This document shows positions 9,620 through 57,486 of a stretch of 59,522 bases of DNA, in pieces. Origin of the DNA: Cytophagaceae bacterium (GTDB lineage Bacteria; Bacteroidota; Bacteroidia; Cytophagales; Cytophagaceae). Under the pieces are notes generated by a model that saw only the letters and a program-made list of their open reading frames with translations, was not told the DNA's origin and ran no database searches. Position 1 is the first letter of the stretch. Each line of letters starts with the position of its first letter. Location of the stretch: NCBI GenBank assembly GCA_025455005.1, contig JALONH010000016.1, positions 1 through 59,522 of the forward strand, in the 5' to 3' direction. The position numbers were made by a program, and so were the translations under genes.

Positions 9620-9700
9620 TTCCGTTATAGGTTTATTAGTGTGTTAAAAATCAATTGTAAAAATAATAAAAGCAAAACGAAAGTTCTACACAATCCTAAG

Positions 9701-10642: not shown

Positions 10643-10648
10643 ATTATA

Positions 10649-12304
10649 TTAGAAAGAACCGAATTTTTTCTTTCGTTGAAGATGTTGGTATACTGCAAAC
10701 GATACAACGATAAGGATAGGTAAAGCAATATTTAAGAATTGCCAGAAGAAGCGTTTAGATTGAATAGTAGTAACATCTAAAGGACGCATTACAACCTCTT
10801 TACTCCTTACTTCGATTACCTCTTGATTCATTAAATAATCGATTGAGTTTAATATTAAATCTTTAGAAGAAAATTGATACCGCATATCTTTATCGTAACC
10901 TAAAGCAATTGGCTTGTTTCGATAGGTATCCATTTCATTTAAAATTAAATCAGCATCCGAATACACAATTATCTTTCCATTAGAAGTTGTATTCGTATCC
11001 GAAGCAGGAACACCCCAAGGTGATGGTTTATTTTTATATAAGGAAGTAAATTTACCCTCCAATAATACACCTACTATCTGTTTCCCTGCTTGATAGGAAG
11101 AAGGATCAGAGGTTCGTTTTAAAAAATCCAAATCAATTTGAAAAGGCACATTTAATATTTTAGACTGAGAAGATGTAGTTAACAAAACAGTCTTTTTAAT
11201 ATTTTCAGATTTTACAGTATCTATAGTACCGGCTAACACTAACTTAATAGCATCTAAATTTTTAGTAATAACATGATCACTAAACTCATAAATGATAGGG
11301 TAATATGGAAAACTTAATGCTTGAACCTCTCCATTTAAACCGGTTTGTATAACCGTAGTGGCACAATTAATATCTGATACCGCATTTTGGTTCAAACGAA
11401 TACCGTATTTAAAAAACAAATCATTTAAATTCAATTGTTTTTCAAGTCCAAATGTAACACCATTTTTCAAACTGTCTTTTCTTATGTCTGCTTGGTCTAA
11501 TAAAACGAATAAACGTCCACCATTTACTACATATTGATCTAGAATATATTTTTCTTTTTCTGTAAAAGCTACTGTTGGATTAATCAATATTACAACATCA
11601 GATCCTTTTAAAGCGTTTAGTGAATCTAACTTTCTACGTTGTAATTTATATAATGAAGTTAGGGCATTACTGATTTCTAGCAATTTTTCTTTAGCAGGTT
11701 CCCCATGTCCGTCGATTAAAGTTATGGTTTTATAATTAACGGTCGACAATCGTCTAAGACCTTGCAAAATTTCATACTCCACCCCTTCAACCGATTGATT
11801 TAATTGCTCTTCAATCGATAATGTTTTATTTCCTTTTAAAAAACTAACGGGTGTTTCGCGATTCTTATAGGTTAATATTAGGCCAGGGAATAATAACCTT
11901 TCGGTTTTGCTGCCGTTACTCTCATCTAAGTAATAATGAGGCGTTATGCCTCTTTTATAAATTTGATTTTGAAATCGCTCCCGAATTATTTTATCCGGTT
12001 CTGCCGAAGGGTCAATAAATCTATAAGTTATATTTCGATTAGAATACGCTTTACATTGATCTAATTTTTCTTGTATAGCTTTTCTCAAACGCTCGAAATC
12101 CGAATTTAAAGTCCCACTCAAATAAACATCTACATATAAATCACTTTCTAATGATGACAGTATGTTTTTAGTAACAGGTGCTAAAGAGTGGCGTTTGTCT
12201 TCTGTAAAATCAATTCTAAAAAAATAAGTACTGAAGATGATGTTACAACAAATTAGTGTACCAACAATTAATAGATATTCCAAACAATCATAAACTCTTC
12301 TCAT
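10649..12304 (-). CDS. gldG: GldG-type ABC transporter auxiliary protein
   Basis: 551 residues from the ATG at 12304. A TTG nine bases upstream overlaps the gldF stop and is less likely. There is an N-terminal membrane segment (about 9-28), a large periplasmic region and a C-terminal membrane segment (about 520-540) with a basic tail. The opening 'RIDFTEDKRHSLAPVTKNILSSL' and the 'VILINPTVAFTEKEKYILDQYVVNGGRLFVLLDQ' region are characteristic of GldG / ABC-auxiliary (IFT52/GldG-like) domains. In Flavobacterium johnsoniae GldA-GldF-GldG form an ABC system needed for gliding. Homologues also occur in non-gliders, so gliding is not proven here. Confidence 0.85.
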   Translation of the reverse strand: MRRVYDCLEYLLIVGTLICCNIIFSTYFFRIDFTEDKRHSLAPVTKNILSSLESDLYVDVYLSGTLNSDFERLRKAIQEKLDQCKAYSNRNITYRFIDPSAEPDKIIRERFQNQIYKRGITPHYYLDESNGSKTERLLFPGLILTYKNRETPVSFLKGNKTLSIEEQLNQSVEGVEYEILQGLRRLSTVNYKTITLIDGHGEPAKEKLLEISNALTSLYKLQRRKLDSLNALKGSDVVILINPTVAFTEKEKYILDQYVVNGGRLFVLLDQADIRKDSLKNGVTFGLEKQLNLNDLFFKYGIRLNQNAVSDINCATTVIQTGLNGEVQALSFPYYPIIYEFSDHVITKNLDAIKLVLAGTIDTVKSENIKKTVLLTTSSQSKILNVPFQIDLDFLKRTSDPSSYQAGKQIVGVLLEGKFTSLYKNKPSPWGVPASDTNTTSNGKIIVYSDADLILNEMDTYRNKPIALGYDKDMRYQFSSKDLILNSIDYLMNQEVIEVRSKEVVMRPLDVTTIQSKRFFWQFLNIALPILIVVSFAVYQHLQRKKKFGSF

Positions 12305-12306
12305 AC

Positions 12307-13035
12307 TTACCAATGTCTGCTACCTAATTTTAGTTTCGTTAACCCTAACATTAAACCAATGACTGTTAGAAAATAAAATACATTACGAAAGTCCACTACT
12401 CCTTTACTAAGTGCAATGTAATGGTAATCTAAACTAATATATTGTAATAAAAATGCCTGACTAGTCCAAGAAGATACGGCGGATAAGTCATTAAGCCCTT
12501 TATACCAAACATAGGAAATGGACAAAGCGAGAATAAAAGAAACCACTTGATTTAAACTCATAACCGACGCAAATAAACCAATCGAAACGAAAACTAATCC
12601 CATTAATAGTAAGCCTACATAGGAAGAAAAAACAGCGGCTGAATCTATATTACCCACTGGTTTTCCTAAATAATACACAGAACCATAATAAATAAGTGTG
12701 GGTATTACAGCGACTACTACTATAGCACCTGAAGCGAAAAATTTACCTAATATTATATCCCAATCTGAGATGGGTTTTGTTAGCAGTAACTCTATTGTTC
12801 CATCTTTTTTCTCTTCGGCAAATAAGCGCATGGTAATAGCCGGAATTAATAACATAAAAGCTAAAGGAGCCAAGTAAAATAAAGTATCCAAATCTGCATA
12901 ACCATAGGACTCAATGGAGGTGGAAGGAATCACCCATAAAAAAACACCAATAAAGGTTAGAAAAACAATAATAGCTAAATACGCTACTAATGAATTTAAT
13001 AAAGTGGTAGTTTCTTTTCTAAATATAGCCCACAT
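12307..13035 (-). CDS. gldF: GldF-type ABC-2 permease
   Basis: 242 residues with about six membrane segments. The 'FAEEKKDGTIELLLTKPISDWDIILGKFFAS' block is the signature of ABC-2 permeases of the GldF/NosY kind. It starts one base after the gldA stop and ends two bases before the gldG ATG, so the three are clearly one operon. It should form the inner-membrane channel part of the complex with the GldA-like ATPase. The substrate is unknown. Confidence 0.88.
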   Translation of the reverse strand: MWAIFRKETTTLLNSLVAYLAIIVFLTFIGVFLWVIPSTSIESYGYADLDTLFYLAPLAFMLLIPAITMRLFAEEKKDGTIELLLTKPISDWDIILGKFFASGAIVVVAVIPTLIYYGSVYYLGKPVGNIDSAAVFSSYVGLLLMGLVFVSIGLFASVMSLNQVVSFILALSISYVWYKGLNDLSAVSSWTSQAFLLQYISLDYHYIALSKGVVDFRNVFYFLTVIGLMLGLTKLKLGSRHW

Positions 13036-13036
13036 A

Positions 13037-13960
13037 TCAACGTATCCCCTGTTGGGTTAATTCTCTAAATATTGTTTCTAAACTTCTTTCTTCTTCTTTC
13101 ATTTCAAGAATAGTCCATTGATGTTGAGCGCAAAATTGAAACACCTCTGAACGCACATCCGTGTCAGCTTGTATGGTTAATTCATATACCGCGAATGCAA
13201 AGGATTGTACTTGGGAAACAAAAGGGAGTTGTAACCATACATCAGAAGACACTTCTGATACCAATTGAATCCGCAATATTCGATTATTTAATTTTCCTTG
13301 TTTAAGGGCTGAAACGGTATCATTAGCCACAATCGTTCCACGATTAATAATCACCACTTGTTGACAAAGCGCCTGTACCTCCTGCATGATGTGCGTAGAC
13401 AAAATTACCGTTTTATTTTCTGCAATGGATGCTATAAGTTGACGTATTTCTACTATTTGATTGGGATCTAATCCGGTTGTTGGTTCGTCCAATATTAATA
13501 CGGAGGGATTAGGTAAAAGAGCTTGAGCTAAACCCACTCGTTGTCGATAGCCTTTGGACAAAGCTCCAATCTTTTTATTCTGTTCTAACGTTAGACCACA
13601 AACTTCTATCATTTCAGCGATACGTTTTGTCAGAACTTCTCCCTTCCATTGATACAGATGTCCAATAAATTGAAGATACTCAAAAACAAACATATCTACA
13701 TACAGAGGATTATGCTCGGGCAGATAACCGACTTGTCTCTTCACTTCCAATGGGTATTGTGCTACATCCGTTCCATTCACGAATACAGTGCCTGACGTTG
13801 GGGGAATATAACCGGTAGCAATCTTCATTGTTGTAGATTTACCGGCTCCATTAGGTCCTAAAAATCCTGTAATGATACCTTTAGGCGCTATAAACGATAT
13901 ATCGGAAACAGCTTGCTGTTTGCCATATTGTTTTACTAAATGTGAAACCTCAATAGACAT
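13037..13960 (-). CDS. gldA: GldA-type ABC transporter ATPase
   Basis: 307 residues. Walker A GPNGAGKS (35-42), signature LSKGYRQRV (134-142), Walker B LILDEP (155-160) and the switch His in STH (188-190) are all present. The C-terminal ~80 residues are the extension usual in GldA/CcmA-like ATPases. The signature has KGYRQR rather than SGGQ, as is common in the GldA group. It is coupled to gldF with a 1-base gap, and trmB lies 21 bases upstream. It energises the GldF-GldG complex. Confidence 0.88.
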   Translation of the reverse strand: MSIEVSHLVKQYGKQQAVSDISFIAPKGIITGFLGPNGAGKSTTMKIATGYIPPTSGTVFVNGTDVAQYPLEVKRQVGYLPEHNPLYVDMFVFEYLQFIGHLYQWKGEVLTKRIAEMIEVCGLTLEQNKKIGALSKGYRQRVGLAQALLPNPSVLILDEPTTGLDPNQIVEIRQLIASIAENKTVILSTHIMQEVQALCQQVVIINRGTIVANDTVSALKQGKLNNRILRIQLVSEVSSDVWLQLPFVSQVQSFAFAVYELTIQADTDVRSEVFQFCAQHQWTILEMKEEERSLETIFRELTQQGIR

Positions 13961-13981: not shown

Positions 13982-14674
13982 CTATTTAATGGATTTATCA
14001 TGTGTATTATGACTAGGTAAAAACTTAAATCTTAAATAGTTAATTTTAAAGCCTACTTTTTTAAATTTTCGTTCATAGGTTGTCTCAATTCCCAAATGTT
14101 CTGATAGCATAGGAGATTGATCTAAATCGAAGGTGTAGTCTAATTCAGAAATACCCCATTCGGGATCTTGTAATACCTCCAAGGTATAATCAAACAATGC
14201 TCTATTATCCGTTTTAAAATGAACACTTCCACCTTGAGGCATTAGTCTTTTATAAATACTTAAAAACCGTCTTCCGGGTAACCTTAATTTTTCATCCCCT
14301 TCTTTAGGTCTGGGATCCGGGAAGGTAATCCAAATAGTATCAACTTCTCCGGGTTCGAAGAAATCTTCTAAAGACTGAAGTTTTGTTCTAAGAAATGCTG
14401 TATTATGTAATCCTAATTCAACAGAGAGAGAACTACCTTTCCATAATCGAGCTCCTTTAATATCAATACCAATAAAGTTTCGATCGGGATACTGTTGAGC
14501 TAAACCAGTAGTATATTCTGCTCTCCCACATCCAACTTCTAATGTAATAGGGTTATGGTTTCCAAAATGATGTTTCCAATTCCCTTTAATAGTAGCATAT
14601 TTTTCTTTACCGGGCTGTATAAAATTATATGCCTCTTCATTAAATTTAAATCGTAAGAGTTTTTTTCTAGCCAT
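13982..14674 (-). CDS. trmB: tRNA (guanine-N7-)-methyltransferase
   Basis: 230 residues, normal length. It makes m7G46 in tRNA using S-adenosylmethionine. Visible motifs: SAM-binding LEVGCG (45-50), GIDIKGARLWKG (69-80) and TFPDPRPK (117-124), followed by 'GRRFLSIYKRLMPQGG'. The start overlaps the folC stop by 8 bases, so the two are probably translationally coupled. It lies in the middle of the long minus-strand run, 21 bases ahead of gldA. Confidence 0.95.
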   Translation of the reverse strand: MARKKLLRFKFNEEAYNFIQPGKEKYATIKGNWKHHFGNHNPITLEVGCGRAEYTTGLAQQYPDRNFIGIDIKGARLWKGSSLSVELGLHNTAFLRTKLQSLEDFFEPGEVDTIWITFPDPRPKEGDEKLRLPGRRFLSIYKRLMPQGGSVHFKTDNRALFDYTLEVLQDPEWGISELDYTFDLDQSPMLSEHLGIETTYERKFKKVGFKINYLRFKFLPSHNTHDKSIK

Positions 14675-15974
14675 CTTTTCTCCAAATGGTTATATCGCCT
14701 AATAAATATATACTTCCTCCAATCCAGACTATATCCTCTTTTGAGGCAATAGAAAGAATATTTTCAATACATTGATTCACATTTTCATTAATTGTGTAGG
14801 TTCGACCAATTGCTTCAAAATAAGAGGCTAATTCTTTTACGGGCATTGCTCTGCCATTTTGAGCCGCTGTTAGATTACAATGAAAATCAGCAGGAATAAA
14901 GGAAAGCATTTTGTCAATGGATTTATCTTTCGAACAGCCTATAACCAAATAGATAGTATTCTTAGCTGTTTTTAAAAGTTTCAATTGTGTCATTGCTAGT
15001 TCGATTCCGGCATCATTATGGGCGGCATCTAAAATCACCATAGGTTGTTTCGACATAAGTTGCCAACGTCCCATAAAAGAAGTCAACATCACCACTCTCC
15101 TACATCCTTCATATATGGCTTCCAGAGGAATTTCAAAATCGGACAAAACTGTGAGCACTTGTAATACTGCTTTTATATTTGCTTTTTGGTAATGACCTAA
15201 TAACCCGCATTGCAAATGAGGTAAAAAGGGTTGTCCATATTGAAACACATTCCATTCTTGATATGAAACCGTTTCAGAGAGAGGTATTACTTCAAATGTT
15301 TCATCTGCAAAATAAATAGGACTTTTTTGTTTTAAAGCATTTTGGTGAATGATATCACTATATGGTAAGTGGGACTCTGATAAAACGATTGGTACGAAGG
15401 GTTTGATTATTCCACTCTTTTCATGTGCAATTTGTTCTACAGAATGACCTAAGTATTGAACGTGATCTAAACTAACATTCGTTATAACACTGATAAGAGG
15501 TTGTATGATATTTGTGGCGTCTAATCGCCCACCCATTCCGGTTTCTATGATAGCAATATCTACTGTATTCTTCCGAAAATAATCAAAAGCCATTACAGTC
15601 GTGATTTCAAAAAAAGATGCCGGTACATCTATATTTTTATCTAAAAATTCTTGAACAAAACGAATAACAGATGTTTCGTTTATCTGTTCCCCATTTATTT
15701 TAATGCGCTCTCTAAAGCTAAACACGTGCGGAGAAGTATATAATCCGACCTTATATCCGGCAGACATTAATATGGCTGCTAATAAGTGAGAGCAACTACC
15801 CTTTCCATTTGTACCTGCAATATGTATACAGGGAAATGTTTTTTCAGGCCGACCAAATGCTTCAGAGAGTTGGACTACATTGTCTAATCCAGGCTTATAC
15901 GCTAGTGCCCCATTTTTTTCAAAAGCGGGATGTGCGTTATATAAATAATCGATGGTCTCCTGATACGAAAGCAC
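14667..15974 (-). CDS. folC: Dihydrofolate synthase / folylpolyglutamate synthase
   Basis: 435 residues of the Mur-ligase superfamily. ATP-binding GTNGKGS at 54-60, 'ETGMGGRLDATN' at about 144-155 and the 'LDAAHN' loop are present. It adds glutamate to dihydropteroate and to reduced folates. The start is GTG at 15974 (GTG-CTT-TCG-TAT-CAG): there is no upstream ATG after the tonB stop 11 bases away, and the resulting N-terminus 'LSYQETIDYLY' matches the family. It is coupled to trmB by an 8-base overlap. Confidence 0.95.
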   Translation of the reverse strand: MLSYQETIDYLYNAHPAFEKNGALAYKPGLDNVVQLSEAFGRPEKTFPCIHIAGTNGKGSCSHLLAAILMSAGYKVGLYTSPHVFSFRERIKINGEQINETSVIRFVQEFLDKNIDVPASFFEITTVMAFDYFRKNTVDIAIIETGMGGRLDATNIIQPLISVITNVSLDHVQYLGHSVEQIAHEKSGIIKPFVPIVLSESHLPYSDIIHQNALKQKSPIYFADETFEVIPLSETVSYQEWNVFQYGQPFLPHLQCGLLGHYQKANIKAVLQVLTVLSDFEIPLEAIYEGCRRVVMLTSFMGRWQLMSKQPMVILDAAHNDAGIELAMTQLKLLKTAKNTIYLVIGCSKDKSIDKMLSFIPADFHCNLTAAQNGRAMPVKELASYFEAIGRTYTINENVNQCIENILSIASKEDIVWIGGSIYLLGDITIWRKDG

Positions 15975-15985
15975 TACAGGAGTGT

Positions 15986-16795
15986 TTAATAGGACTTTTT
16001 AATATTAAAAGTAACTGTTCCGGTTGAGCTGGGAGCTACATTGGCACCATTTGGTTCAAACTCTGCTGACCACAATATTTTTTCATATTGTTTAACCGTA
16101 GCAGGAGACACAGATGAATGATCCGTCACAATTGAAATAATCTGACCATCTTCATCTATTTTAATTTTGAATACAATTTGTCCTTCTTCTTGAGGGTTTT
16201 GAGGTAATGAAGGTTTTTTCTTCCATCTCCAACCCGACAAACTTAAACCATCACCTACAGAACCTGTACCGGAACCACCATCCCCGGTTCCACTTTTTCC
16301 ATAATAATTTTTTGAATTAGTTGATCCATTTGGATCTCCTTGATTCCCTGTAGTACCGGTGGTTCCATCTCCTGGATTCGGTTTCATTAAATTTTTAGGA
16401 TTTGTGGCAGGTTGGGTTGAACTTACTGAAGTAGTTTTTTGAGGTGTTGTAGTACTGGTTGAAACAGTAGTAGATTTTACTACGGTGTGTTCAGAAGGCA
16501 GTGTCGATGTAACGGGCGTGGTGGGTGCCTCTGTTGATTCAGTTGGCGTAATCGTTTCTACCGGAGTAGTTTCAGAAACAGTAGGCTCTGAAGCAGGTTC
16601 AGTAGAATTATTATCCCCGGAACCAGCGGCATCTAACCCGAAATTTAATTCAATTCCCGGCATACCCGGAGTAGGAGGATCCGGTTGACGCCATACTACA
16701 AAAAACAAAAACAAAAGCAACAATAGAGCATGAACTATAACTGTAGTTACAAATGCTTTTCTATCGTTTACATATTGTTCGTGTTTGGTCAACAT
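15986..16795 (-). CDS. TonB-like energy transducer
   Basis: 269 residues with TonB layout. A short cytoplasmic head is followed by a membrane segment (about 14-35), a long Thr/Ser/Pro/Gly-rich linker (about 40-190) expected to cross the periplasm, and a C-terminal domain (about 200-269) with 'EEGQIVFKIKIDEDGQI' and 'STGTVTFNIKKSY' strands. It follows exbD with a 3-base gap and exbB before that, so it should be the moving arm of a proton-motive-force motor. The C-terminal domain is divergent and could engage a specific partner, such as the barrel or SPOR protein of the same operon. Confidence 0.85.
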   Translation of the reverse strand: MLTKHEQYVNDRKAFVTTVIVHALLLLLFLFFVVWRQPDPPTPGMPGIELNFGLDAAGSGDNNSTEPASEPTVSETTPVETITPTESTEAPTTPVTSTLPSEHTVVKSTTVSTSTTTPQKTTSVSSTQPATNPKNLMKPNPGDGTTGTTGNQGDPNGSTNSKNYYGKSGTGDGGSGTGSVGDGLSLSGWRWKKKPSLPQNPQEEGQIVFKIKIDEDGQIISIVTDHSSVSPATVKQYEKILWSAEFEPNGANVAPSSTGTVTFNIKKSY

Positions 16796-16798
16796 AAA

Positions 16799-17200
16799 TT
16801 ATTTTTCTGTTACAGTGGCTAAGGATACTTTTAATCCTAAACTATTGCAAATACTGGCAACTTTTACAAAATATTCGGTTGGAACATCTTTATCTACGTG
16901 CAACGTAACGAAGGTATTTTTTATATCACCGGATATAGATGCTTTGATATCATTTTCCATTGTAGATAAAGAAGATTCTTTATTCCCAACTAAATAACGT
17001 AAATCTTTGCTTATTGTTATGGCAATTTCAGTAGGTTTAGTATTTACTTCTTTATCTGTAGATGGTAAACTAACAGGCAATGCAGAGGGTGTAACAAAAG
17101 TAGAGGTTAATAGAAAAAAAATCAAAAGCAGAAATACTAAATCTGTCATGGAAGACATATTAAATTCTGTAGTGATTTTATTCCTTCTTTTCAACTGCAT
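16799..17200 (-). CDS. exbD: ExbD/TolR-family biopolymer transport protein
   Basis: 133 residues with one N-terminal membrane helix (about 19-37). The sequence 'FNMSSMTDLVFLLLIFFLL' carries Asp20 at the position of the proton-conducting Asp of ExbD/TolR. The remainder is a small periplasmic domain. It sits between exbB and tonB with gaps of 9 and 3 bases. Confidence 0.93.
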   Translation of the reverse strand: MQLKRRNKITTEFNMSSMTDLVFLLLIFFLLTSTFVTPSALPVSLPSTDKEVNTKPTEIAITISKDLRYLVGNKESSLSTMENDIKASISGDIKNTFVTLHVDKDVPTEYFVKVASICNSLGLKVSLATVTEK

Positions 17201-17209
17201 ATTGAAAGA

Positions 17210-17896
17210 CTATTTATTAGGTTGCTGAAGTAATTCGAGAAATTCAATTGACGCATATTCCATTTGGTGAATAATACGTTGTACCTTCCCTACTAAAAAA
17301 TTGTAACTTGCCAACGCGATAATACCGACAACTAAACCGGCAACCGTTGTCACCATGGCTTCATACATACCGGAAGATAATAACTTAGGTGATATCGTAC
17401 CTTCTTCTTGAGCAATTGCAATGAAAGCTTGTATCATACCGGTTACGGTTCCTAAGAAACCTAACATGGGAGCAAGACCAGATATAGAGGCTAACCATGC
17501 CAAGTTCTTTTCAAGATTGTATAATTCAATCTTTCCAACATTTTCAATAGACGCTTCTATATTACTTAATGGAGATCCTATTTTAGATAATCCTTTATGA
17601 ATCATTCTAGAAAATGGGGTTTTAACTGTTTCGCAATGCATCATAGCGGACTTAACGTCCCCTTCCACTACATATCCTTTTATTTTATCTAAGAATGTTT
17701 GAGGATTACGATCGAATTTTAAATATGTTAAGTAGCGCTCAACTAATAAAAAAATAGAAACAAAAGACAATAAGAAGATAGGAATCATAATCCAACCTCC
17801 GGCTTGAATAAGTGACCATAAGGTAATTTCACTAACGGTTTCAGCAACATCAGATGCTGAAGTTGTATTGGTAGTTGTTATTTGCTGTAGGAACAT
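17210..17896 (-). CDS. exbB: ExbB/TolQ/MotA-family proton channel protein
   Basis: 228 residues with three membrane segments (about 30-50, 125-150 and 158-182). The 'ISGLAPMLGFLGTVTGMIQAF' and 'GMYEAMVTTVAGLVVGIIALASYNFL' blocks are diagnostic of the ExbB/TolQ/MotA family. It should form the stator pentamer around the ExbD helix. It starts 6 bases after the SPOR gene stop. Confidence 0.93.
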   Translation of the reverse strand: MFLQQITTTNTTSASDVAETVSEITLWSLIQAGGWIMIPIFLLSFVSIFLLVERYLTYLKFDRNPQTFLDKIKGYVVEGDVKSAMMHCETVKTPFSRMIHKGLSKIGSPLSNIEASIENVGKIELYNLEKNLAWLASISGLAPMLGFLGTVTGMIQAFIAIAQEEGTISPKLLSSGMYEAMVTTVAGLVVGIIALASYNFLVGKVQRIIHQMEYASIEFLELLQQPNK

Positions 17897-17902
17897 GTAA
17901 AC

Positions 17903-18922
17903 TTAAAACTTTTTAACCCAAATGCTTTCGCCTAATTCTGACACTAGCTCTAAACGTTTTGCTTTTGCCTCTTCTTTAGTTGTGTAACTTCCAATTGTAA
18001 CATAATGTAACCCTTTGGTTTCAGATGTATGTTTTTGGGGATCTAGAGAAGTGTATTTATTTACTAATTGATCCGCATTGCTTTCTTCCTTAAATACGCC
18101 TACGACTATAGCGTAAGATCCTTTGGAAATACCATAATTCTCCTCAATTGTTGATGTTTCAGATGGTGTTACCATCGTTTCAGGTGAATCATTCAATTGA
18201 ACCATACTGTCTGCTTGTTGAACAGAGTCTATCGTTTGTAATACTATTTCTTTCACCTCATTAGAATTTTCAAGGTTAGCAGTAGTGTCGGAACCAAATA
18301 CACTTGAGAATGAAAATCCAGCTATTTGCATCTCCGGGTTCTGTTTCATAATTATTAAACCGGAACCTAGTAATAGAATAACGGGAGCAATAAATAGCAT
18401 CACTTTCCAAACGTTACTTTTAGAAGCAGTAGTTGTTTGGTCGCTTTCTGCAACTACTTTTTTAGTTTGTGTTTTACGTCTATTTTCCATTGGTTTAGTA
18501 CTTCGGTCTATAGGTTTTAACATCAATTCAGGTAAGCCGTATACATCTGAAGAAGAGATTAATCGGCTTTCAGGAATAAATTCAACATTTCCTTCATCGT
18601 TGATATAAAATCTACCTACACCGGCTAAGGAATATTTTTTCTGTGTGTTTAATTCAGTTGTAACCCATTGAACCCAATTCTGAATCTGTTGATTCGCTTC
18701 AAAAAAAGTTATTTTTTCTTGAGTGGCAATATGTGACGATAACAAACCGTCATTAACCTTAACTTGCTTATTAAACCCAATGGTTTTACCCGGAGGTAAA
18801 ACTTTATGCGTAATGGGGTGAATTTCTGCAGATATTTTTTGAACTAATAGTGCACCCCAGCCAGGTATTATTACACAATCCTGATTTTCAATTAGTTGAC
18901 TAATATACTGACTAATATTCAT
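17903..18922 (-). CDS. HU-CCDC81-like and SPOR domain membrane protein
   Basis: 339 residues. The N-terminal ~135 residues ('QDCVIIPGWGALLVQ', 'YSLAGVGRFYINDEGNVEFIPE') match the paired HU-CCDC81-like domains found in Bacteroidota. One membrane helix follows (about 171-192), then an acidic linker, then a C-terminal SPOR domain (about 262-339, 'YAIVVGVFKEESNADQLV' ... 'HYVTIGSYTTKEEAKAKR'). By family knowledge SPOR domains bind peptidoglycan with denuded glycan strands, often at the septum. The HU-like part is predicted to be cytoplasmic, so the protein could link DNA or a cytoplasmic partner to the cell wall. Its place next to exbB-exbD-tonB argues for a shared envelope machine. Confidence 0.85.
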   Translation of the reverse strand: MNISQYISQLIENQDCVIIPGWGALLVQKISAEIHPITHKVLPPGKTIGFNKQVKVNDGLLSSHIATQEKITFFEANQQIQNWVQWVTTELNTQKKYSLAGVGRFYINDEGNVEFIPESRLISSSDVYGLPELMLKPIDRSTKPMENRRKTQTKKVVAESDQTTTASKSNVWKVMLFIAPVILLLGSGLIIMKQNPEMQIAGFSFSSVFGSDTTANLENSNEVKEIVLQTIDSVQQADSMVQLNDSPETMVTPSETSTIEENYGISKGSYAIVVGVFKEESNADQLVNKYTSLDPQKHTSETKGLHYVTIGSYTTKEEAKAKRLELVSELGESIWVKKF

Positions 18923-20548
18923 TTAAAAGCTATACGTAAATCCGGCTAAAACGTTGATACTCTTTTGAGTATAATACAAGTACCGTTGGTATTTCTGTGC
19001 TAATATATTATTAAATTCGATAAAAGCCGCAAAATCAGACGAGAATCTATATTCTGCTTGAATACTCAAGTCAATAATATTCTTAAGTTCTACCTCTCGA
19101 TTCGTTTGTCTATTCCATGCTTGTATACCACCTATATAGTATAATTCTGATCGAATGATTATTTTGTTTGACGCATTATAGGAAGCTCCTGCTGTTGCAA
19201 AAAAGGAAGGTCTATGCCATGCTTTTTGGAGTTGATCTGTAGTCCATTGATTCCATTCTAAAGAAGCATAAGTTCTCCATGTTTTAGAAAGATCATAAAA
19301 TAATTGTCCTTTAAGTGCTATTAAGGACGTTGTCCCTCTATCATAAAGTAGTTCAAATTGGCTAGAATCTACTATACTATTTGTAAAAAAGTATTGGTTT
19401 TTATAGGAAGCAAAGGAAAATTGTGTTTTATAATTAACTTTTTTAGAAATATTGCCTTTTGCACCAGCGTAGAATTCAATCGTATTGTTTGCATTTGCCA
19501 ATATAGAATTCTGACCCAAATATGGATTAAGCTGCACCATACTTCTATAAGTATTGTTTTGTAATTGACCATTAAGTCCTCCAAAAAAAGTTAATTTACC
19601 GGGTTGATAAAAGTAATCAAAATGGGCGTAAGGGTAAACATGAACCCCATCTGATCCTTTTAAGGTATCGGAAGAATAATTAAAAGTTGCCCCTACTTGT
19701 AAGATATAATTTGTTTTACTGATTTGATAAACAGGTCTACAATAAATTAATAATCTATTTTGATCTGAACTATCTTTTTTTGATGCATTAGACACATAGG
19801 ATTCCAACTTAACAGAACGTTCATCATTTATTTTATATGTTCCTTTGCCTTTCCATAATAATTCAAATTCGGAAGCATTTCTACTTGTAGTTAAATAAAA
19901 TAAATCAATACCGGTCGAATATTGAAAGGATTTACCAACCTGGATAGAATGCGTTGCTATTTGACCATGGAATAGTTGATACAATTGTCGAATGGTATCT
20001 TTATCAACTATAATATCTTGAGGTAGTCCATAGTAAAAATAGCGATCGCGACTATATGAAACATGTGAAGACCATTTATTCGTCTTTCCTATTCTTGACA
20101 CAAATCCTTCTATAAGTTGTTGACTAATTCCGGAGTTGTTTAAAACACCTTTTGCGGAAGAATAATGGCGGGCATGAGCGCCTACGCTCCATGTTTTAGA
20201 TCTTTTATTATGGACATAAGCATCTAAGTAGGGTGTAGTATAATTCCCAAATCCTACTTTAATATAATTGTTTTGAATCGCATTAATCGAATCCTCCGGC
20301 ATTTTTGGGATGGCTACTTTAGCATCAAATCGGGGGGGATTTATAGTATAGTCTCGTGCATCATACTGTTGAGGTTTAATATCCGGAACAGGTTGAACAT
20401 CCCCATTTTGTTCAAAGAATCGATTAGCCGGCTGAAGTTCTAAATCACCCACAACAACAACATCAAACGTTGCATCTTGCACTGATCCTTGTTGCCCAAA
20501 GGTTGTTACGGAAACTAGGAAAATCAACGGTATAAATAATTTATTCAT
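18923..20548 (-). CDS. Predicted outer-membrane beta-barrel protein
   Basis: 541 residues with a signal peptide (about 1-18, ending FG-Q). From residue ~90 it is a succession of alternating, Tyr-rich amphipathic strands with short turns, ending 'KSINVLAGFTYSF' with a C-terminal Phe, as expected of an outer-membrane barrel. I do not see a TonB-dependent-receptor plug domain, only a ~90-residue N-terminal region rich in Pro, Asp and Val. The start overlaps the TPR gene stop by 8 bases, and the SPOR gene ATG follows immediately after its stop. It is plausibly the outer-membrane partner of the ExbBD-TonB module in the same operon. Confidence 0.75.
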   Translation of the reverse strand: MNKLFIPLIFLVSVTTFGQQGSVQDATFDVVVVGDLELQPANRFFEQNGDVQPVPDIKPQQYDARDYTINPPRFDAKVAIPKMPEDSINAIQNNYIKVGFGNYTTPYLDAYVHNKRSKTWSVGAHARHYSSAKGVLNNSGISQQLIEGFVSRIGKTNKWSSHVSYSRDRYFYYGLPQDIIVDKDTIRQLYQLFHGQIATHSIQVGKSFQYSTGIDLFYLTTSRNASEFELLWKGKGTYKINDERSVKLESYVSNASKKDSSDQNRLLIYCRPVYQISKTNYILQVGATFNYSSDTLKGSDGVHVYPYAHFDYFYQPGKLTFFGGLNGQLQNNTYRSMVQLNPYLGQNSILANANNTIEFYAGAKGNISKKVNYKTQFSFASYKNQYFFTNSIVDSSQFELLYDRGTTSLIALKGQLFYDLSKTWRTYASLEWNQWTTDQLQKAWHRPSFFATAGASYNASNKIIIRSELYYIGGIQAWNRQTNREVELKNIIDLSIQAEYRFSSDFAAFIEFNNILAQKYQRYLYYTQKSINVLAGFTYSF

Positions 20549-23500
20549 TTTTCCCTCCTTCTCCTGTCATAGTATTTAATTCTACCCATCTTTTTTTGGC
20601 AGCAGTTTGAATCTCTGTATTTTTACTTCCATCAATTACTGATTGTATAATATCTTTAGCTTGTTTAATATCCCCTATGGATACATAATTTTCAGCAATC
20701 AATAAAAACGATCTGCCATACCAATAGTCGTAATTAAAATATATATTATTAAAATCATATAAGGTCTCAATCGAACTCTGATATTTTTTGGTATCATACG
20801 CTATCTGAGCAATCATAAAATGAGCTTCGGCAGAATATTTATCTTTAGCTCCATTTAAACAACGAATCCAACTATCAGAGGCTTGTTCCAAATCTCCCTT
20901 TTTATAAAAACTTTTTCCTTGATATAACAGTGCTTTATTTTCTGCTTCTGGTGAAGATGTCCCATTCGTCATCAGTTGTTGAGACATTACGATACAAGAG
21001 TCGAATTGATTCGTTTCAAAATAAGACTCCATTAATCCAGTCCAAGCATTCGTTTTGTCCTTAACCCCTGTAGCTATTGGCAATAATTTATTCCAATAAA
21101 CAATGGCATTCAAATAGTCTTTACTTGTTTGATAAAGTTCTGCTTGTCGGGAAATAGCTTTTTTATAATATTGATCCTGATTTGATTCAACTACTTTAAA
21201 TTGAAGTAAGGCTTTTTCTTTATTTCCGGAACGATAATAAGCATCTGCTAATAAATATGTAGCTTCGGCATATTCATCTTGTTTGGGATATTTAAGTAGA
21301 AATTGTTCTAAAGCAACACTCGCCGCACTATACTTTTCTGCACTATATAATCCTTTAGCATTACTATATTCAATATCTTTTAACTTTTGATCTTCCGGAT
21401 TAGCCGCTTGATATTGGGATAATACTGTTGCAAAAGCATCTTCTTTATTTTGTATTTGGTAAATTTGCTGTATACTTAATAAGGCATTATAGGCTTGAGG
21501 AGAACTACTGTATGTATTTAATATAGTTAAATTATCTGCTACAGCTTTATCATACTCTTTTAAATTATAATATGCAATACTTCTTTTTTCTAAGGCAATT
21601 ACTTTAAATCCTTTTGTATCTACCGGTTTTTCTATGATCTGTGTATATTCTTGAATCGCTGCTGTATACCGTTTAGCATTTAAATCGATATTCCCTTTTT
21701 GAAGTAATGCTTTTTCAACATATGCTGATGTAGGATTCTTCTGTATCAATTTAGAATACGACTGATAGGCCATTTCTTTTTTATCTGTAATATCATAAAT
21801 TGTAGCTTGTTGATACAAAATATATTCTTGTTGAACATCTGTTTCGACTATTGCATAATCGTATTGTTTTATAGCCTCCTGGAAACGACGTGTGATAAAA
21901 TATATATCTGCTATTCTCAGTTGAGCATCTGCATAATATTTTTCCTTTTTACCTTTGAGATCTGCCTGTTCGGTTATATAGATTCTAAAGTGTTTCAAGG
22001 CAGCATCCCATTCTTTTAGATTATAATGAGCATATCCTAAACTATAATGGGTTTTTACTACCGATTCATTTTCTAATCCGGAGCCATAATTTATTACCAT
22101 TTCATAAGGAGTAATTGCTTCAGTATATTTTTTTTGAATACTAAAAGATTCCCCTTTCCAATACAAACTTTGAATATGTATGGTTTTATCGAGTGGATAC
22201 TTCAATGACTTATCAAAATAGTCAATAGCAGTTGGATACGATGCTTTATTGAATAGTTCAACACCTTTATAGTAACAAATCCTTTGATACGCAATATTTA
22301 CCCGCATGCTTCTAGATTTCAAACCTTCTATAAGTGATATAGCATCGTCGTAATCTCTAGAACCTAAATAAGCCTCTGTAATAATTTCTATCGCTTCAGC
22401 ATATCTGCTTCCTTTAGGATATTGGGTTATATAACCCATTAGAATTTTTGTCGATTGCGTGAAACGACCTAATTCATAGGAAACTTTCCCTAATGTAAAT
22501 TGAGCTTCTTCGGTTATAGATGCATTAAAAGACGACTTTGTTGCCACCTCTAAATATTGAGCTGCGGCTATTTTATCATTCGATTTAAGAAAACTTAACC
22601 CGGTGATGTATGCACAACTTTGTCCAAGAGAATCCTTATCCGACGACATATCTTTAAGTAATCGTACCGATTGAGCATAATCACTTGTTTTATATGCTGC
22701 ATATCCCATTCTATATTTAATATCCGGAGTCAACCCTTTAACTCCAACAGATTCTACATACTCTTTAAATAAAGTATTTGACTTTATAAAATCCGATGTA
22801 AAGAAGTAGCTATCCGCCAAAATCAATTTAACGTCATTTGTATTAGGTCCTGCTAACTTCTTAGATAAAACATCTTCTGCATAAGGTATTACCTCTGAAT
22901 ATTTTCCTTGTCTATAAAAAATATTACAAATCAATACGGGTACTAATTTTGCATAATCAGTATGTTCTGATGCTTTTTTTAAATCTAATAAAGCGGTATC
23001 ATAATTACCTTTTTTAAATTCAATATAGCCGGCATAAAAATTAGCAGCATACATATACTTATGTTTATTGCTTTTGGCTTCATTAAAATTGGATAATGCG
23101 GAATCAAATTCTTTTTTTGTTAAATAAGAATATCCTAACTTAAAATAGGTTTCCAGTTTTTCTTCTGATGATAAAATACTAAGGTTTGCTTGAGTATAAT
23201 ATTCTATAGCTTTATCGTATTTTTTACTTCTATAGAAAAAATTTCCAACATCAAATCCTACTCTACCCGCTTTGATATGATAAGGATAGTTTTTTAAAAA
23301 GGTAACAAATCTGTATTCTGCATCATCGTGAAATAATTCCAGTGCACATAAAGCGGCATAATATTCTGATTCTATTTTACGGATATCATCGTCTACTGTT
23401 TGTAAACGAAATTTATCAAATAATTCTAATGCCGGTCCAAATTTTTCTCTATCATATAACTCAACAGCAGAATAGTAAAGTCTATCGGGAGCTTGATGTG

Positions 23501-23567
23501 TGGCTGTATTTTGAGCAAACACAACCGTAATACTACATAACCAAAGAATAAATCCAATTTTTTTCAT
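20541..23567 (-). CDS. Giant periplasmic tetratricopeptide-repeat protein
   Basis: 1008 residues with a signal peptide (about 1-19, ending FAQ). Nearly the whole mature protein is TPR-like helix pairs. Repeated signatures such as 'YDKAIEYYTQANLSI', 'YTEAITPYEMVINYG', 'FQEAIKQYDYAIVE' and 'YDKAVADNLTILNTY' recur roughly every 34-38 residues. It is therefore a long superhelical scaffold, most likely periplasmic. It is followed directly (8-base overlap) by the barrel gene and then the HU/SPOR, ExbB, ExbD and TonB genes. A role as a scaffold or peptidoglycan-proximal adaptor for that machine is inference. Confidence 0.85.
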   Translation of the reverse strand: MKKIGFILWLCSITVVFAQNTATHQAPDRLYYSAVELYDREKFGPALELFDKFRLQTVDDDIRKIESEYYAALCALELFHDDAEYRFVTFLKNYPYHIKAGRVGFDVGNFFYRSKKYDKAIEYYTQANLSILSSEEKLETYFKLGYSYLTKKEFDSALSNFNEAKSNKHKYMYAANFYAGYIEFKKGNYDTALLDLKKASEHTDYAKLVPVLICNIFYRQGKYSEVIPYAEDVLSKKLAGPNTNDVKLILADSYFFTSDFIKSNTLFKEYVESVGVKGLTPDIKYRMGYAAYKTSDYAQSVRLLKDMSSDKDSLGQSCAYITGLSFLKSNDKIAAAQYLEVATKSSFNASITEEAQFTLGKVSYELGRFTQSTKILMGYITQYPKGSRYAEAIEIITEAYLGSRDYDDAISLIEGLKSRSMRVNIAYQRICYYKGVELFNKASYPTAIDYFDKSLKYPLDKTIHIQSLYWKGESFSIQKKYTEAITPYEMVINYGSGLENESVVKTHYSLGYAHYNLKEWDAALKHFRIYITEQADLKGKKEKYYADAQLRIADIYFITRRFQEAIKQYDYAIVETDVQQEYILYQQATIYDITDKKEMAYQSYSKLIQKNPTSAYVEKALLQKGNIDLNAKRYTAAIQEYTQIIEKPVDTKGFKVIALEKRSIAYYNLKEYDKAVADNLTILNTYSSSPQAYNALLSIQQIYQIQNKEDAFATVLSQYQAANPEDQKLKDIEYSNAKGLYSAEKYSAASVALEQFLLKYPKQDEYAEATYLLADAYYRSGNKEKALLQFKVVESNQDQYYKKAISRQAELYQTSKDYLNAIVYWNKLLPIATGVKDKTNAWTGLMESYFETNQFDSCIVMSQQLMTNGTSSPEAENKALLYQGKSFYKKGDLEQASDSWIRCLNGAKDKYSAEAHFMIAQIAYDTKKYQSSIETLYDFNNIYFNYDYWYGRSFLLIAENYVSIGDIKQAKDIIQSVIDGSKNTEIQTAAKKRWVELNTMTGEGGKNE

Positions 23568-23610
23568 AACCTAGCCTTATAACGTATCGACTACTTTCTT
23601 TCTTATCTAC

Positions 23611-24645
23611 TTAATGTAAAATCTTATATAGCAACTCGCTAAGTATGGCATCTTCTTCCATTGTAGGGTATCCATATCCTTTAACCATTTTATCAGCTTC
23701 TCTTAAATAATGTATACAAGCCACACATTTATCTTTACTGTAAAGTTTACTTGCGGTAATATATTCAGATACAAAAAAAGGATGTACTGATAATAATTTA
23801 GCAACAGCTTCTTTGCTTTTATCAGCAGAAGAATGGAGCATTAAAAGTTTAACAAAATAAGTATACAGATTTGCTATTACCATTATAGGAGGAGCAACCT
23901 TAGGATTCAGAGCAAAATATCGAATGATAGTAAACACCTTTAAAGTATTTTTCTCACCTATTGCTTTTTGCAATTCAAATACATTGTATTCTTTGCTTAC
24001 GCCAATATATTCTTCAACTAAATTTTCATCGATCGGTTTATCGACTTGCTTAATATTGATTTTAAGTTTATCTATTTCATTTGCAATACGAGATAAATCA
24101 TTCCCAATAGATTCTGCGATTAGCTTTGTTGCTTGTGGGGTTATTTTTAATCCCTTTTCCGTAATTAAATTGGATACCCAAGCTTCAATTTGATTATCGT
24201 ATAATTTTGAAGATTCTACGACAACTGCATGAGCTTGTATGGATTTGCTCAGCTTCTTTCGAGAATCTATCTTTTTGTATTTATGACAAAACACTAGGAC
24301 TGTACTAGGCAATGGATTTTCCATATAAGCAGCTACTAGCTTTTCATTCTCTTCCTTAAATAACCCGGAAAGTTCTTGTGCCTCTTTTACGATTACTACT
24401 TGTCTATCCGAAAACATTGGAAATTTTCGAGCAGCTTGAATGACAGCTGACACTGTAGTGTCTTTGCCATACACTATGGTTTGATTAAACGATTTTTCCG
24501 TTTCTTGAAGGCAATGTTGTTCTATATAATTCGCAATCCAATCGACATAATACGGTTCTTCTCCATGTAAAAAATAGATAGGTGCATATTTCCCTGATTT
24601 CAGGTCTTTCATAACACTATCCGGAGAAGTTTGTACTTTGGCCAT
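23611..24645 (-). CDS. holA: DNA polymerase III delta subunit
   Basis: 344 residues from the ATG at 24645 (MAKVQTSPD). A TTG 18 bases upstream would only add a short extension. It is the clamp-loader delta subunit, which opens the DnaN ring. Family features: 'IYFLHGEEPYYVDWIANYIEQ' near the N-terminus, 'QVVIVKEAQELS' and the C-terminal collar 'MKGYG...AILSELLYKILH'-like region. It is the first gene of the long minus-strand run, 43 bases before the TPR gene, and divergent from tyrS. Confidence 0.9.
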   Translation of the reverse strand: MAKVQTSPDSVMKDLKSGKYAPIYFLHGEEPYYVDWIANYIEQHCLQETEKSFNQTIVYGKDTTVSAVIQAARKFPMFSDRQVVIVKEAQELSGLFKEENEKLVAAYMENPLPSTVLVFCHKYKKIDSRKKLSKSIQAHAVVVESSKLYDNQIEAWVSNLITEKGLKITPQATKLIAESIGNDLSRIANEIDKLKINIKQVDKPIDENLVEEYIGVSKEYNVFELQKAIGEKNTLKVFTIIRYFALNPKVAPPIMVIANLYTYFVKLLMLHSSADKSKEAVAKLLSVHPFFVSEYITASKLYSKDKCVACIHYLREADKMVKGYGYPTMEEDAILSELLYKILH

Positions 24646-24760
24646 AGTAGCAAAAATAAGCAAGGTTAAAGTATTAAAGTAGAGATGTGCATAAATCTAG
24701 TCAATAGTAGTTATCCACTAGGAATGCCTTGATCCTGTTTTATATTCGCAGAAATGCCCG

Positions 24761-26083: not shown

Positions 26084-26677
26084 ATGACCAAAATCAACCA
26101 TACAATCGTCGTCCGTAAGCGCTGTACCTATGTGGACTCCAAAGGGAATCGTTGTACCAAAGAAACAACCGTTACGCATCCATATTGTCCACAACATACA
26201 CAAAAGGTTTTAGGACTAAAGGTGGCGAAGTCAACAGTCCCCTTTGCCGGACTTGGCCTATTCACGTTAAAACCTATCAAAAAAGGAGATATTGCTTTAT
26301 TTTATGAAGGTGAAAAGTTAACCGTGAAAGAATACAATAAACGATATGAAAAAGAAGGATTCGGCGAATATGGAATGACGTTAGGAGCTAGACATGTTAT
26401 TGATGCTCGTAAAACTTCTTCGGGTTTAGGTAGATATGTTTGTGATTATACCGGTAGTGGGCAGAAGGCCAATGTTAAATATTATGACAATAAGGGCAAA
26501 ATAGAAATTACAGCTAAACGAAATATTGAAGCAGGTGAAGAATTAATGGTCAGTTATGGCAAGGAAATGCGAACAGCTATGGGTTTTCAGCATATTAACG
26601 TAGAAGAGAAGAAAAGACTTAAGAAAGAAAAAAAGGCTCTTAAAAAGTCCAAAAAAGAGAAGAAACTAAAGAAATAA
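26084..26677 (+). CDS. SET-domain protein with zinc-finger-like N-terminus and poly-lysine tail
   Basis: 197 residues in three parts. Residues 14-38 hold a C-x9-C-x10-C-x2-H pattern (C14, C24, C35, H38), a likely treble-clef or C3H zinc site. Residues ~45-162 read as a SET domain: 'PFAGLGLFTLKPIKKGDI', then 'GRYVCDYTGSGQKANVKY', then 'ITAKRNIEAGEELMVSYGKE'. The usual NHS in the middle block is replaced. Residues 176-197 are a strongly basic tail with 14 lysines in 22 residues. SET proteins are lysine methyltransferases; the substrate here is unknown. It is 3 bases after tyrS and probably co-transcribed with it. A bidirectional terminator follows. Confidence 0.82.
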   Translation: MTKINHTIVVRKRCTYVDSKGNRCTKETTVTHPYCPQHTQKVLGLKVAKSTVPFAGLGLFTLKPIKKGDIALFYEGEKLTVKEYNKRYEKEGFGEYGMTLGARHVIDARKTSSGLGRYVCDYTGSGQKANVKYYDNKGKIEITAKRNIEAGEELMVSYGKEMRTAMGFQHINVEEKKRLKKEKKALKKSKKEKKLKK

Positions 26678-26707: not shown

Positions 26708-27079
26708 TTATATAAGTACCTCCCCTACTGTAATGGGCTGAACCAAAGCCAATGGCGAAATCGTTTTTTCCAACTGTAGGCTTGTTGTTTTTACGCCACA
26801 ACAAGATTTGGATTTTGTTTTACAACATTTACGTTGATCGCAACAATCTACTTTACCACAACAAGCAGTTGTAGAACAACAATTGGTTGTTTTAACACTA
26901 CAGCAAGAAGAGGGTGTAGAAGACAGACCTGTCATATGGCTGCAGGTTGTAGGGTTTTTACAACACTTACTTTTTGCACAGCAGGATTTCGACTGAGTAC
27001 TATCTTGAACAGCTGCAGAAGCGACTCCGATGAACACTAGACATGATAATGTTATGATTAAAGAAATTATATTTTTCAT
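26708..27079 (-). CDS. Secreted cysteine-doublet-rich protein
   Basis: 123 residues. A clear signal peptide ends near residue 22 (VASAA). The mature part has 17 cysteines, 16 of them in eight CC doublets spaced by short Lys/Thr/Ser-rich segments, followed by a cysteine-free C-terminal tail. This composition is metallothionein-like, so extracytoplasmic binding of soft metals (Cu, Zn, Cd or Ag) is the leading idea, but I know no named family. It is the last gene of a three-gene minus-strand cluster with an HMA-type lipoprotein and a HYC_CC_PP-like protein. Confidence 0.8.
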   Translation of the reverse strand: MKNIISLIITLSCLVFIGVASAAVQDSTQSKSCCAKSKCCKNPTTCSHMTGLSSTPSSCCSVKTTNCCSTTACCGKVDCCDQRKCCKTKSKSCCGVKTTSLQLEKTISPLALVQPITVGEVLI

Positions 27080-27110
27080 AATGAGTTGATTTTAATAATT
27101 AAGAATAAGG

Positions 27111-27440
27111 CTACTCTCTAACTTTACAACATTCATGTAATTGTTCGTGTGCTACAGTATTCATTGGAACTAATTTAGTACCATGACCTACATTTGCTAC
27201 TGCTTCATGCACTTTCGATGAAGTAGTTTGTGTAGAATCAAAAGTTATAATTAAGTCCTTCGTTTCAACATTCCAGTCGGCTGTTGAAACACCTTTTATC
27301 GACAAGGCTGTTGTTTCAATGCGTTCCTTACACATCTCGCAATTTCCACGAACGTAAAAGGTATCTTTAGAATTTGGACTTGAACACGAAAACAATACTG
27401 TTCCACTTACTAAAACAGCGATAAATACTATATTTTTCAT
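27111..27440 (-). CDS. Heavy-metal-associated (HMA) domain lipoprotein
   Basis: 109 residues. The lipobox LFSC gives a lipidated Cys19. The mature part is a short ferredoxin-like HMA domain with the metal-binding C-x2-C in 'GNCEMCKERIETTALSIKGV' (soft-metal chaperone fold). An extra CC pair and His residues lie near the C-terminus ('HEQLHECCKVRE'). Copper or a similar cation is the expected ligand. It is probably anchored in the outer membrane or inner-membrane periplasmic face. It lies between the two other small metal-type genes. Confidence 0.85.
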   Translation of the reverse strand: MKNIVFIAVLVSGTVLFSCSSPNSKDTFYVRGNCEMCKERIETTALSIKGVSTADWNVETKDLIITFDSTQTTSSKVHEAVANVGHGTKLVPMNTVAHEQLHECCKVRE

Positions 27441-27507
27441 AGCAATGAATTTAATGATAAAGTTTTAAGAAATAGAATAATTATACAGACCGTAAATTGC
27501 TTGTCGA

Positions 27508-57475: not shown

Positions 57476-57486
57476 GAGTTGAACGG

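Follow-up and report, generated by a model that had tools for sequence, protein, structure and literature searches.

How do Bacteroidota keep hold of their outer membrane when they divide? Diderm bacteria must draw in and hold this membrane at division, Proteobacteria use Tol-Pal to do so, and a 2025 study reports that tol-pal loci could not be identified in Bacteroidetes (PMC12204202). The question is raised anew by six consecutive genes in a stretch of 59,522 nucleotides (the window) from a Cytophagaceae bacterium (assembly GCA_025455005.1, contig JALONH010000016.1; genome of 2.94 Mb in 45 contigs). Read on the minus strand from position 23567 down to 15986, they encode a tetratricopeptide repeat (TPR) protein, an outer-membrane barrel, a protein with HU and SPOR domains, ExbB, ExbD and a TonB-like protein. 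The gene set is real and conserved and is a variant of the Ton/Tol kind; the function that we infer for it is considered below together with its rivals.

Coordinates of the open reading frames (ORFs) give an 8-base overlap between the TPR and barrel genes, followed by junctions of 0, 6, 9 and 3 bases, and confirm the run with overlaps or gaps under 10 bases that had been described in a sequence-only reading of this DNA. The protein families named there (TPR, HU and SPOR, ExbB, ExbD) are over the Pfam cut-offs. The ExbB/ExbD and TolQ/TolR families are motors driven by the proton-motive force. The two members encoded in the window pass the superfamily cut-offs of Pfam and stay below the equivalog cut-offs of TolQ (80.2 bits vs 221) and TolR (37.5 vs 127.3). 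Asp20 of ExbD, which the same reading had singled out, is present, with aspartate at the aligned position in 151/151 other sequences, while Thr150 of ExbB is found in 147/147 and Thr183 in 143/147 aligned sequences; we take the aspartate of the ExbD transmembrane helix and the two ExbB threonines to be motor residues.

The end of the transducer of the proposed ExbB/ExbD/TonB motor is, by its modelled fold, TonB-like rather than TolA-like. At the level of families this end lies below the cut-offs (TonB_2, 16.8 bits vs 22 in Pfam; TIGR01352, 21 vs 27.1 in NCBIfam). The AlphaFold2 model, built on an alignment of 32 sequences, begins with a helix (residues 4-35); a linker of low confidence leads from it to a C-terminal domain at about residues 183-266, which is modelled confidently (block pLDDT 82-96). 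The best PDB matches of this domain in Foldseek are TonB domains (6fip, E 2.9e-4; 2gsk and 1u07, near 4e-3), and TolA appears at E 0.2 or worse. As modelled, the C-terminal domain is a TonB fold. A canonical TolA was rejected, since Foldseek favours TonB; the TolA model TIGR02794 scores 18.1 bits vs 59.45. According to PMC12204202, TonB and TolA domains bind their targets by strand addition, and in both proteins an SxHxLxS motif holding a histidine binds the motor. Of this motif, the helix of the window's transducer keeps His22 and Leu24 but not the serines on either side.

The barrel protein matches no Pfam or NCBIfam family at E 0.01, and its PDB sequence search returns generic relatives of TonB-dependent transporters (TBDTs). 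Its AlphaFold2 model (alignment of 46 sequences) is confident from about residue 93, residues 1-92 being unfolded with a low-confidence tail, and contains 22 strands as counted by eye from the strand list with short edge strands joined. Among the matches listed, all 50 rows of Foldseek and all 50 of VIA-align 2 are TBDTs, and the best VIA-align 2 match among them is BtuB (Z 22.6, 410 residues, 3.3 Å). A FadL-type barrel such as BamG was discarded on the same listed matches. The plug of a TBDT is about 130 residues long. The mature protein has only about 73 residues ahead of the barrel, counted from a signal peptide that was judged by eye. This is too short for such a plug, and we take the plug domain to be absent. 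The barrel predicted earlier is thus supported by the model and can be refined: the protein models as a 22-strand TBDT fold without a plug.

What precedes the barrel is a conserved tail. Its conservation over residues 21-50 is about 1.7 bits per column on average, vs 1.1-1.3 in residues 51-90; the signal peptide reaches 1.6-1.7, and ten-residue blocks of the barrel are mostly at 1.0-1.7, with up to 2.3 in the first and last strands. An alignment of 110 barrels reveals a motif [DE]-[IV]-x-[IV]...[RK] at about residues 26-48 of the N-terminal tail. E or D stands at position 27 in 72/110 barrels, I, V or F at position 28 in 101/110 and I or V at position 30 in 97/110, with a hydrophobic residue at 28 and V or I at 30 together in 92/110; R or K occupies position 43 in 108/110, and P position 48 in 79/110. 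We liken this motif to TonB boxes of the D-T-I-x-V kind, and it resembles, judging by residue pattern, a putative TonB box.

The two remaining proteins are the TPR and the HU/SPOR protein. The TPR protein carries a signal peptide, judged by eye, with a nearly invariant Ala18-Gln19, by which it is predicted to be periplasmic. TIGR02795, the model of CpoB/YbgF-like repeats, matches it over five stretches with 140.4 bits vs a cut-off of 90.1; its TPR matches are generic, as are its relatives in the PDB sequence search. A known type IX secretion subunit was rejected (PorW/SprE match of 57.2 bits vs a cut-off of 250), and so was a known BAM subunit, a word search through the text at hand of two Bacteroidota BAM papers giving no mention of TPR.

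The HU/SPOR protein is, by its domains, a member of the HU-CCDC81/SPOR proteins: it matches PF18174 (6.9e-19; 68 bits vs 26) and PF18175 (8.5e-17; 61.3 vs 35), and its SPOR domain spans residues 267-327 (6.5e-10; 39.6 bits vs a cut-off of 21 in Pfam). In the PDB sequence search it finds kin of HU and IHF, and the SPOR domain is weakly related to that of FtsN (E 0.0012). Several division proteins have SPOR domains that bind to glycan at the septum; by profile search two proteins of this genome have one. A single transmembrane stretch is seen by eye at about residues 172-193, and we infer an inner-membrane protein with cytoplasmic HU-CCDC81 domains and a periplasmic SPOR domain. Some relatives vary in their HU part. 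In five loci (L041, L048, L061, L072, L076) a second frame of the HU/SPOR family, short in 4/5 of them, precedes the HU/SPOR gene, which may reflect a split or a duplication of the HU part; in TPR-barrel-HU chains of three others (L042, L054, L084) the HU frame showed no SPOR-like part.

Are these six genes kept together in other genomes? The phylum is taken here as in the genome collection, and NCBI places Balneolaceae in a phylum of its own; the region sets compared below (HU-, TPR- and ExbB-anchored regions and named loci) share genomes, and ORF calls lose frameshifted genes. The HU-anchored set comprises 72 regions of 71 genomes selected for PF18175 frames of at least about 200 aa, so its rates are not population rates; PF18175 matches occur in 102/198 phylum genomes, and many of them are short plain HU proteins. 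The barrel gene lies directly upstream of the HU-family gene in 46/72 of these regions and ExbB directly downstream in 41/72. Their longest chains run from TPR to folC in 7 regions, to TonB in 2, to ExbD in 8 and to HU/SPOR in 4, and from the barrel to TonB in 24 and to HU/SPOR in 1, the HU/SPOR gene standing apart in 26. A SPOR-like part is present in the HU-family frame of 66/72 regions (23/26 of those standing apart, 43/46 of the others). The barrel follows directly behind TPR in 45/49 TPR-anchored regions. One locus (L097) has a second barrel-like gene upstream of the TPR gene on the opposite strand.

The TPR alignment is too varied for a pattern scan, and the 80 named loci come from a pattern scan with ExbB. 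Thirteen of them hold the six-gene chain, ten of the thirteen together with holA, folC and trmB as in the window, which points to a probable origin of the window in Cytophagales. The genera named among the thirteen are Pontibacter, a member of Cytophagales, and Fulvivirga, Algoriphagus, Arthrospiribacter, Indibacter and Rufibacter, which we take to belong to the same order. Two Balneolaceae loci (L209, L248) read barrel-HU/SPOR-ExbB-ExbD-TonB. ExbB-ExbD-TonB-folC is found in 12/19 ExbB-anchored regions, which were picked where this type of ExbB lies away from TPR, once with HU/SPOR in front; TonB and folC adjoin in 12/19 of these regions and in 25/80 named loci. Another 14 class genomes, which represent eight families (f50, f62, f70, f72, f84, f86, f88, f92), have an HU match less than 1 kb before ExbB on the same strand, as read by eye. 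TPR followed by ExbB at 1.9-4.7 kb on one contig and strand occurs in at least 53/198 phylum genomes of 16 families (4 in the class, 12 outside), as picked by eye from printed coordinates of same-contig pairs, the barrel and HU/SPOR between the two being unread in f14, f16, f18, f30, f33, f34, f35 and two of the three f29 genomes; random placement would give about 0.001 such pairs per genome. The gene order is thus old, with the six-gene chain in Cytophagales, long parts of it outside the class and blocks in the same order elsewhere, and the adjacency, for which conservation in other genomes had been proposed as a check, is not rare.

The genes around the cluster are of the housekeeping kind (holA, folC, trmB), and the six could simply be envelope genes in a housekeeping operon that share transcription and no function. 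This is highly improbable: the barrel adjoins TPR in 45/49 TPR-anchored regions, of which only 5 hold folC, the blocks keep their order after splitting, and TPR and motor co-occur. At E 1e-30 the TPR protein is found in 190/197 class genomes and 147/198 phylum genomes by profile search, and ExbB of the window type in 195/197 class genomes (189/197 at E 1e-50); HU matches, plain HU proteins included, occur in 172/197, 146 of them above the cut-off. With ExbB of this type called at E 1e-50, the 198 phylum genomes divide into 118 with TPR and motor, 29 with TPR only, none with motor only and 51 with neither, counts that depend on model E-values and are uncorrected for shared ancestry. Among the seven class genomes (of 197) without TPR, ExbB has no match at 1e-30 in two and matches at 1.7e-43 to 1.8e-35 in four, and the barrel model gives nothing in two and 3e-11 to 8e-7 in five, whereas it reaches 3e-27 to 4e-78 in nine other class genomes tested. 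TPR, barrel and motor therefore tend to be lost together, and this co-loss represents few independent events.

The midpoint-rooted tree of ExbB has 82 rows (the window, 29/65 cluster rows, 25/26 folC rows, 25/57 others and two paralogues); rows were entered in locus order up to a limit, and the named Cytophagales clusters are not among them. The three orthologue sets fall into one family, and the other ExbB of the genome sits on a very long branch. All 22 rows from outside the class are from clusters and lie on one side, and class rows are on the other, where clustered and split loci mix and where L198 and L229, labelled as other groups, are also placed. The ExbB of the window forms a long branch, and support for the deepest forks is only moderate (87/83 and 89/78). 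The pattern is in keeping with a single old cluster that has come apart in some lineages. The contig of L198 is labelled Candidatus Competibacteraceae (Pseudomonadota), and its place among Bacteroidota ExbB is likely due to a binning error.

The same data bear on the possibility that ExbB-ExbD-TonB is the house Ton system for many nutrient TBDTs and that the other three are separate envelope genes. The TonB-like C-terminal domain would suit such a general energiser, as would the motor block without TPR, barrel and HU/SPOR in many loci, four Bacteroides ones included. Yet the genome encodes one other ExbB, on contig 43, and of its five TonB_C matches at E 0.1 the strongest is on the contig of that ExbB and the window's is the weakest (0.0129). 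In addition, the gene order is found again both within the class and beyond it, and no strong motor of the window type occurs without TPR in the 198 genomes at E 1e-50, which makes this explanation distinctly unlikely.

It is very probable, in our estimate, that the products of the six genes work together. Genes, domains, modelled folds, conserved order and co-occurrence are observations here, and contacts, localisation and role are proposals. In the reading that we put forward, tentatively and with somewhat more doubt than confidence, they form a Ton-type machine driven by the proton-motive force that acts on a plugless barrel, is placed by HU/SPOR and has a Tol-like role at the outer membrane. 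ExbB-ExbD, with Asp20 as the proton site, would drive the TonB-like transducer, whose C-terminal domain would span the periplasm and join the TonB-box-like tail of the barrel by strand addition; that TonB binds this tail appears probable. The pull would be felt by the barrel itself and by the accompanying TPR protein. Since a plugless barrel with a tail motif makes a standard gated importer unlikely, mechanical work on the barrel or on a TPR-held target is more likely, and as there is no plug to move, we propose that the outer membrane is moved or tethered and no nutrient is gated. The HU/SPOR protein would position the machine, with SPOR at septal peptidoglycan and the HU domains facing either the nucleoid or a partner in the cytoplasm. 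The Tol-like role itself, in which the outer membrane would be kept attached and drawn in at division, is the likeliest of the roles considered, and we hold it with reserve.

Several observations weigh against this proposal. The barrel tail is modelled with low confidence, and, as motifs go, the TonB box is a weak one. The histidine of the TonB helix is present in 23/58 cluster rows and 48/74 other rows, and since it is missing in 35/58 cluster rows, motor coupling may differ from that of TonB and TolA. In many loci the motor lies apart from barrel and TPR, four Bacteroides loci having ExbB-ExbD-TonB only. The absence of strong motors from TPR-less genomes depends on the threshold, as at E 1e-45 the motor is found in 5/51 of them, and TPR occurs without a strong ExbB of the window type in 29 genomes; one assembly (G224, 460 contigs) has no TPR match and an ExbB at 2.3e-80. 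In 26/72 HU-anchored regions the HU-family gene is separated from the other five, and in genus g191 (G332, G353), where TPR is missing and ExbB absent or weak, HU matches are still strong and lie in frames of 375-399 aa. FtsK adjacency, described below, is confined to one family and so perhaps reflects one event. Putative TolB-Pal fusions and PorE are reported in Bacteroidetes in PMC12204202, and the Tol role may be filled otherwise. Because HU does not follow the loss of TPR and is so often apart, the data argue against one obligate complex and for a core of motor, barrel and TPR with HU/SPOR as a partner. Of the interpretation given by the sequence-only reading, what stands, by gene order and co-occurrence, is a trans-envelope set that is conserved, is for the most part inherited together and includes a force generator; the six genes as one fixed complex are not supported.

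The main rival to the Tol-like machine is a TonB-powered exporter, with TPR and the plugless barrel forming a channel for surface lipoproteins or other envelope parts, TonB pulling the barrel tail or a TPR-bound gate, and HU/SPOR setting position only. A plugless 22-strand barrel, if modelled correctly, would in principle be an open pore, and the class-wide presence of TPR and of this ExbB type is as expected if the function is essential. In PMC12578637 the surface-lipoprotein flippase of Bacteroidota is regarded as probably essential and as still to be identified. This rival is serious because the channel would be plugless, widespread and powered, and because the lipoprotein flippase is so regarded in that paper. 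It leaves the HU/SPOR gene between barrel and motor unexplained, and no substrate-binding part is recognised, the matches of TPR being generic in Pfam and PDB sequence searches; we consider it unlikely on balance.

Another explanation would place the work in the HU/SPOR protein as an anchor for the nucleoid or for chromosome partition, with HU on DNA, SPOR on the septal wall and the Ton parts giving segregation force or position. Burroughs and others (2017) reportedly proposed a chromosome-partition role for the bacterial HU-CCDC81 clade, and the HU-CCDC81 domains have sequence kinship to HU and IHF. FtsK also adjoins the cluster in Balneolaceae. It was identified by Pfam in one region (L082), and homologues lie at most 2 kb upstream of the barrel in 17/24 regions of family f23 and in L209 and L248, both of Balneolaceae. 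The genes beside the Balneolaceae cluster had been guessed from their lengths to be UppS and BamA, a guess that was dropped when Pfam identified 2-phosphosulpholactate phosphatase and FtsK; a 232-aa gene beside FtsK has a LolA score of 14.9 bits vs a cut-off of 23.6. An anchor of this kind would leave barrel and TPR without explanation, and six aligned HU/SPOR members from outside the class have the second HU domain only, so that we find it very unlikely.

How does the cluster compare with known systems? It shares with the Ton system (ExbB-ExbD-TonB with BtuB or FhuA) the motor, the TonB fold, the barrel fold and the TonB-box-like tail, and differs from it in that its barrel is plugless, TPR and HU/SPOR are its partners and the TonB-helix histidine is not universal. 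With Tol-Pal (TolQ-TolR-TolA-TolB-Pal-CpoB) it has in common the ExbB/TolQ and ExbD/TolR motor families, a transducer with a single transmembrane helix, a TPR protein with CpoB/YbgF-like repeats and, in its SPOR protein, a suggestion of the septum. Unlike Tol-Pal, it has no TolB or Pal genes, its transducer has a TonB-like fold, a 22-strand barrel occupies the position at the outer membrane, and HU/SPOR is added. TolB and Pal, noted earlier as missing from the run, were indeed not found by Pfam and NCBIfam in the nine genes scanned at 13982-24663, no genome-wide TolB search having been made; OmpA-domain matches elsewhere in the genome number 23. Since SPOR, the CpoB-like TPR repeats and the adjacent FtsK point to division, a Tol-Pal analogue or division-linked system, as first suggested, is plausible.

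PorE, a proposed tether between outer membrane and peptidoglycan in Bacteroidetes (PMC12204202), resembles the cluster as a stand-in for Tol-Pal that has TPR. It is different in being a lipoprotein that combines CpoB-, TolB- and Pal-like parts and lacks its own motor, and according to that study PorE may use a TolA/TonB-like transducer. The cluster could supply this transducer, and the two could work together. No description of an HU-CCDC81/SPOR protein in a Ton cluster was found in the literature searched, Burroughs 2017 lying outside that check, and none of the six-gene set among the titles and abstract starts searched, with Burroughs 2017 and Pollet 2023 outside it.

The features are collected in Table 1. 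The holA gene is 43 bases upstream of the six-gene run, and folC lies 11 bases downstream, followed by trmB. Scans for promoters (46 vs a mean of 50.6) and terminators (7 vs 5.2) are at chance level.

Table 1. Genes of the cluster and its co-directional neighbours, with window coordinates
Feature	Position	Strand	Basis
TPR protein, 1008 aa	20541..23567	-	ORF; TPR families (Pfam, NCBIfam)
Outer-membrane barrel, 541 aa	18923..20548	-	ORF; structure model
HU/SPOR protein, 339 aa	17903..18922	-	ORF; Pfam PF18174, PF18175, SPOR
ExbB/TolQ-family motor subunit, 228 aa	17210..17896	-	Pfam PF01618, 2.3e-29
ExbD/TolR-family subunit, 133 aa, Asp20	16799..17200	-	Pfam PF02472, 7.7e-25
TonB-like force transducer, 269 aa	15986..16795	-	Structure model; weak family matches
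folC, frequent neighbour of the motor block, outside the proposed machine	14667..15974	-	TIGR01499, 350.3 bits
trmB, co-directional neighbour, context only	13982..14674	-	NCBIfam
holA, co-directional upstream neighbour, context only	23611..24663	-	NCBIfam

Beyond trmB, on the same strand, are gldA, gldF and gldG of the gliding-motility ABC transporter, all above NCBIfam cut-offs, and further on a DUF4340 protein and dnaN (window 8495-13960, minus strand). Elsewhere the window encodes a SET-domain protein whose tail is rich in lysine, immediately after a gene of the tyrosyl-tRNA synthetase family (26084-26677, plus strand), small proteins that are rich in cysteine and look secreted, one of them with many CC motifs (26708-27882, minus strand), and a protein carrying a sorting domain for type IX secretion (TIGR04183), next to a DUF1800 protein (55778-59265, minus strand).

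The gene set is widespread and brings together a motor, a transducer, an outer-membrane barrel, TPR and a septum-type protein, and it is thus a candidate for Bacteroidota without identifiable tol-pal. That Bacteroidota have here their missing Tol system, built on another plan, in which a Ton motor pulls a plugless barrel by its TonB-box-like tail, the large TPR protein serves in the periplasm and HU/SPOR ties the machine to nucleoid and septal wall, is a rather doubtful step further. If true, however, chromosome, cell wall and outer membrane would be coupled at division by one machine, and a transporter fold would have been turned into a handle for mechanical work. If the role is export, the same genes would address the surface-lipoprotein flippase discussed in PMC12578637. 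Either outcome, Tol-like or export, would answer a question in Bacteroidota envelope biology.

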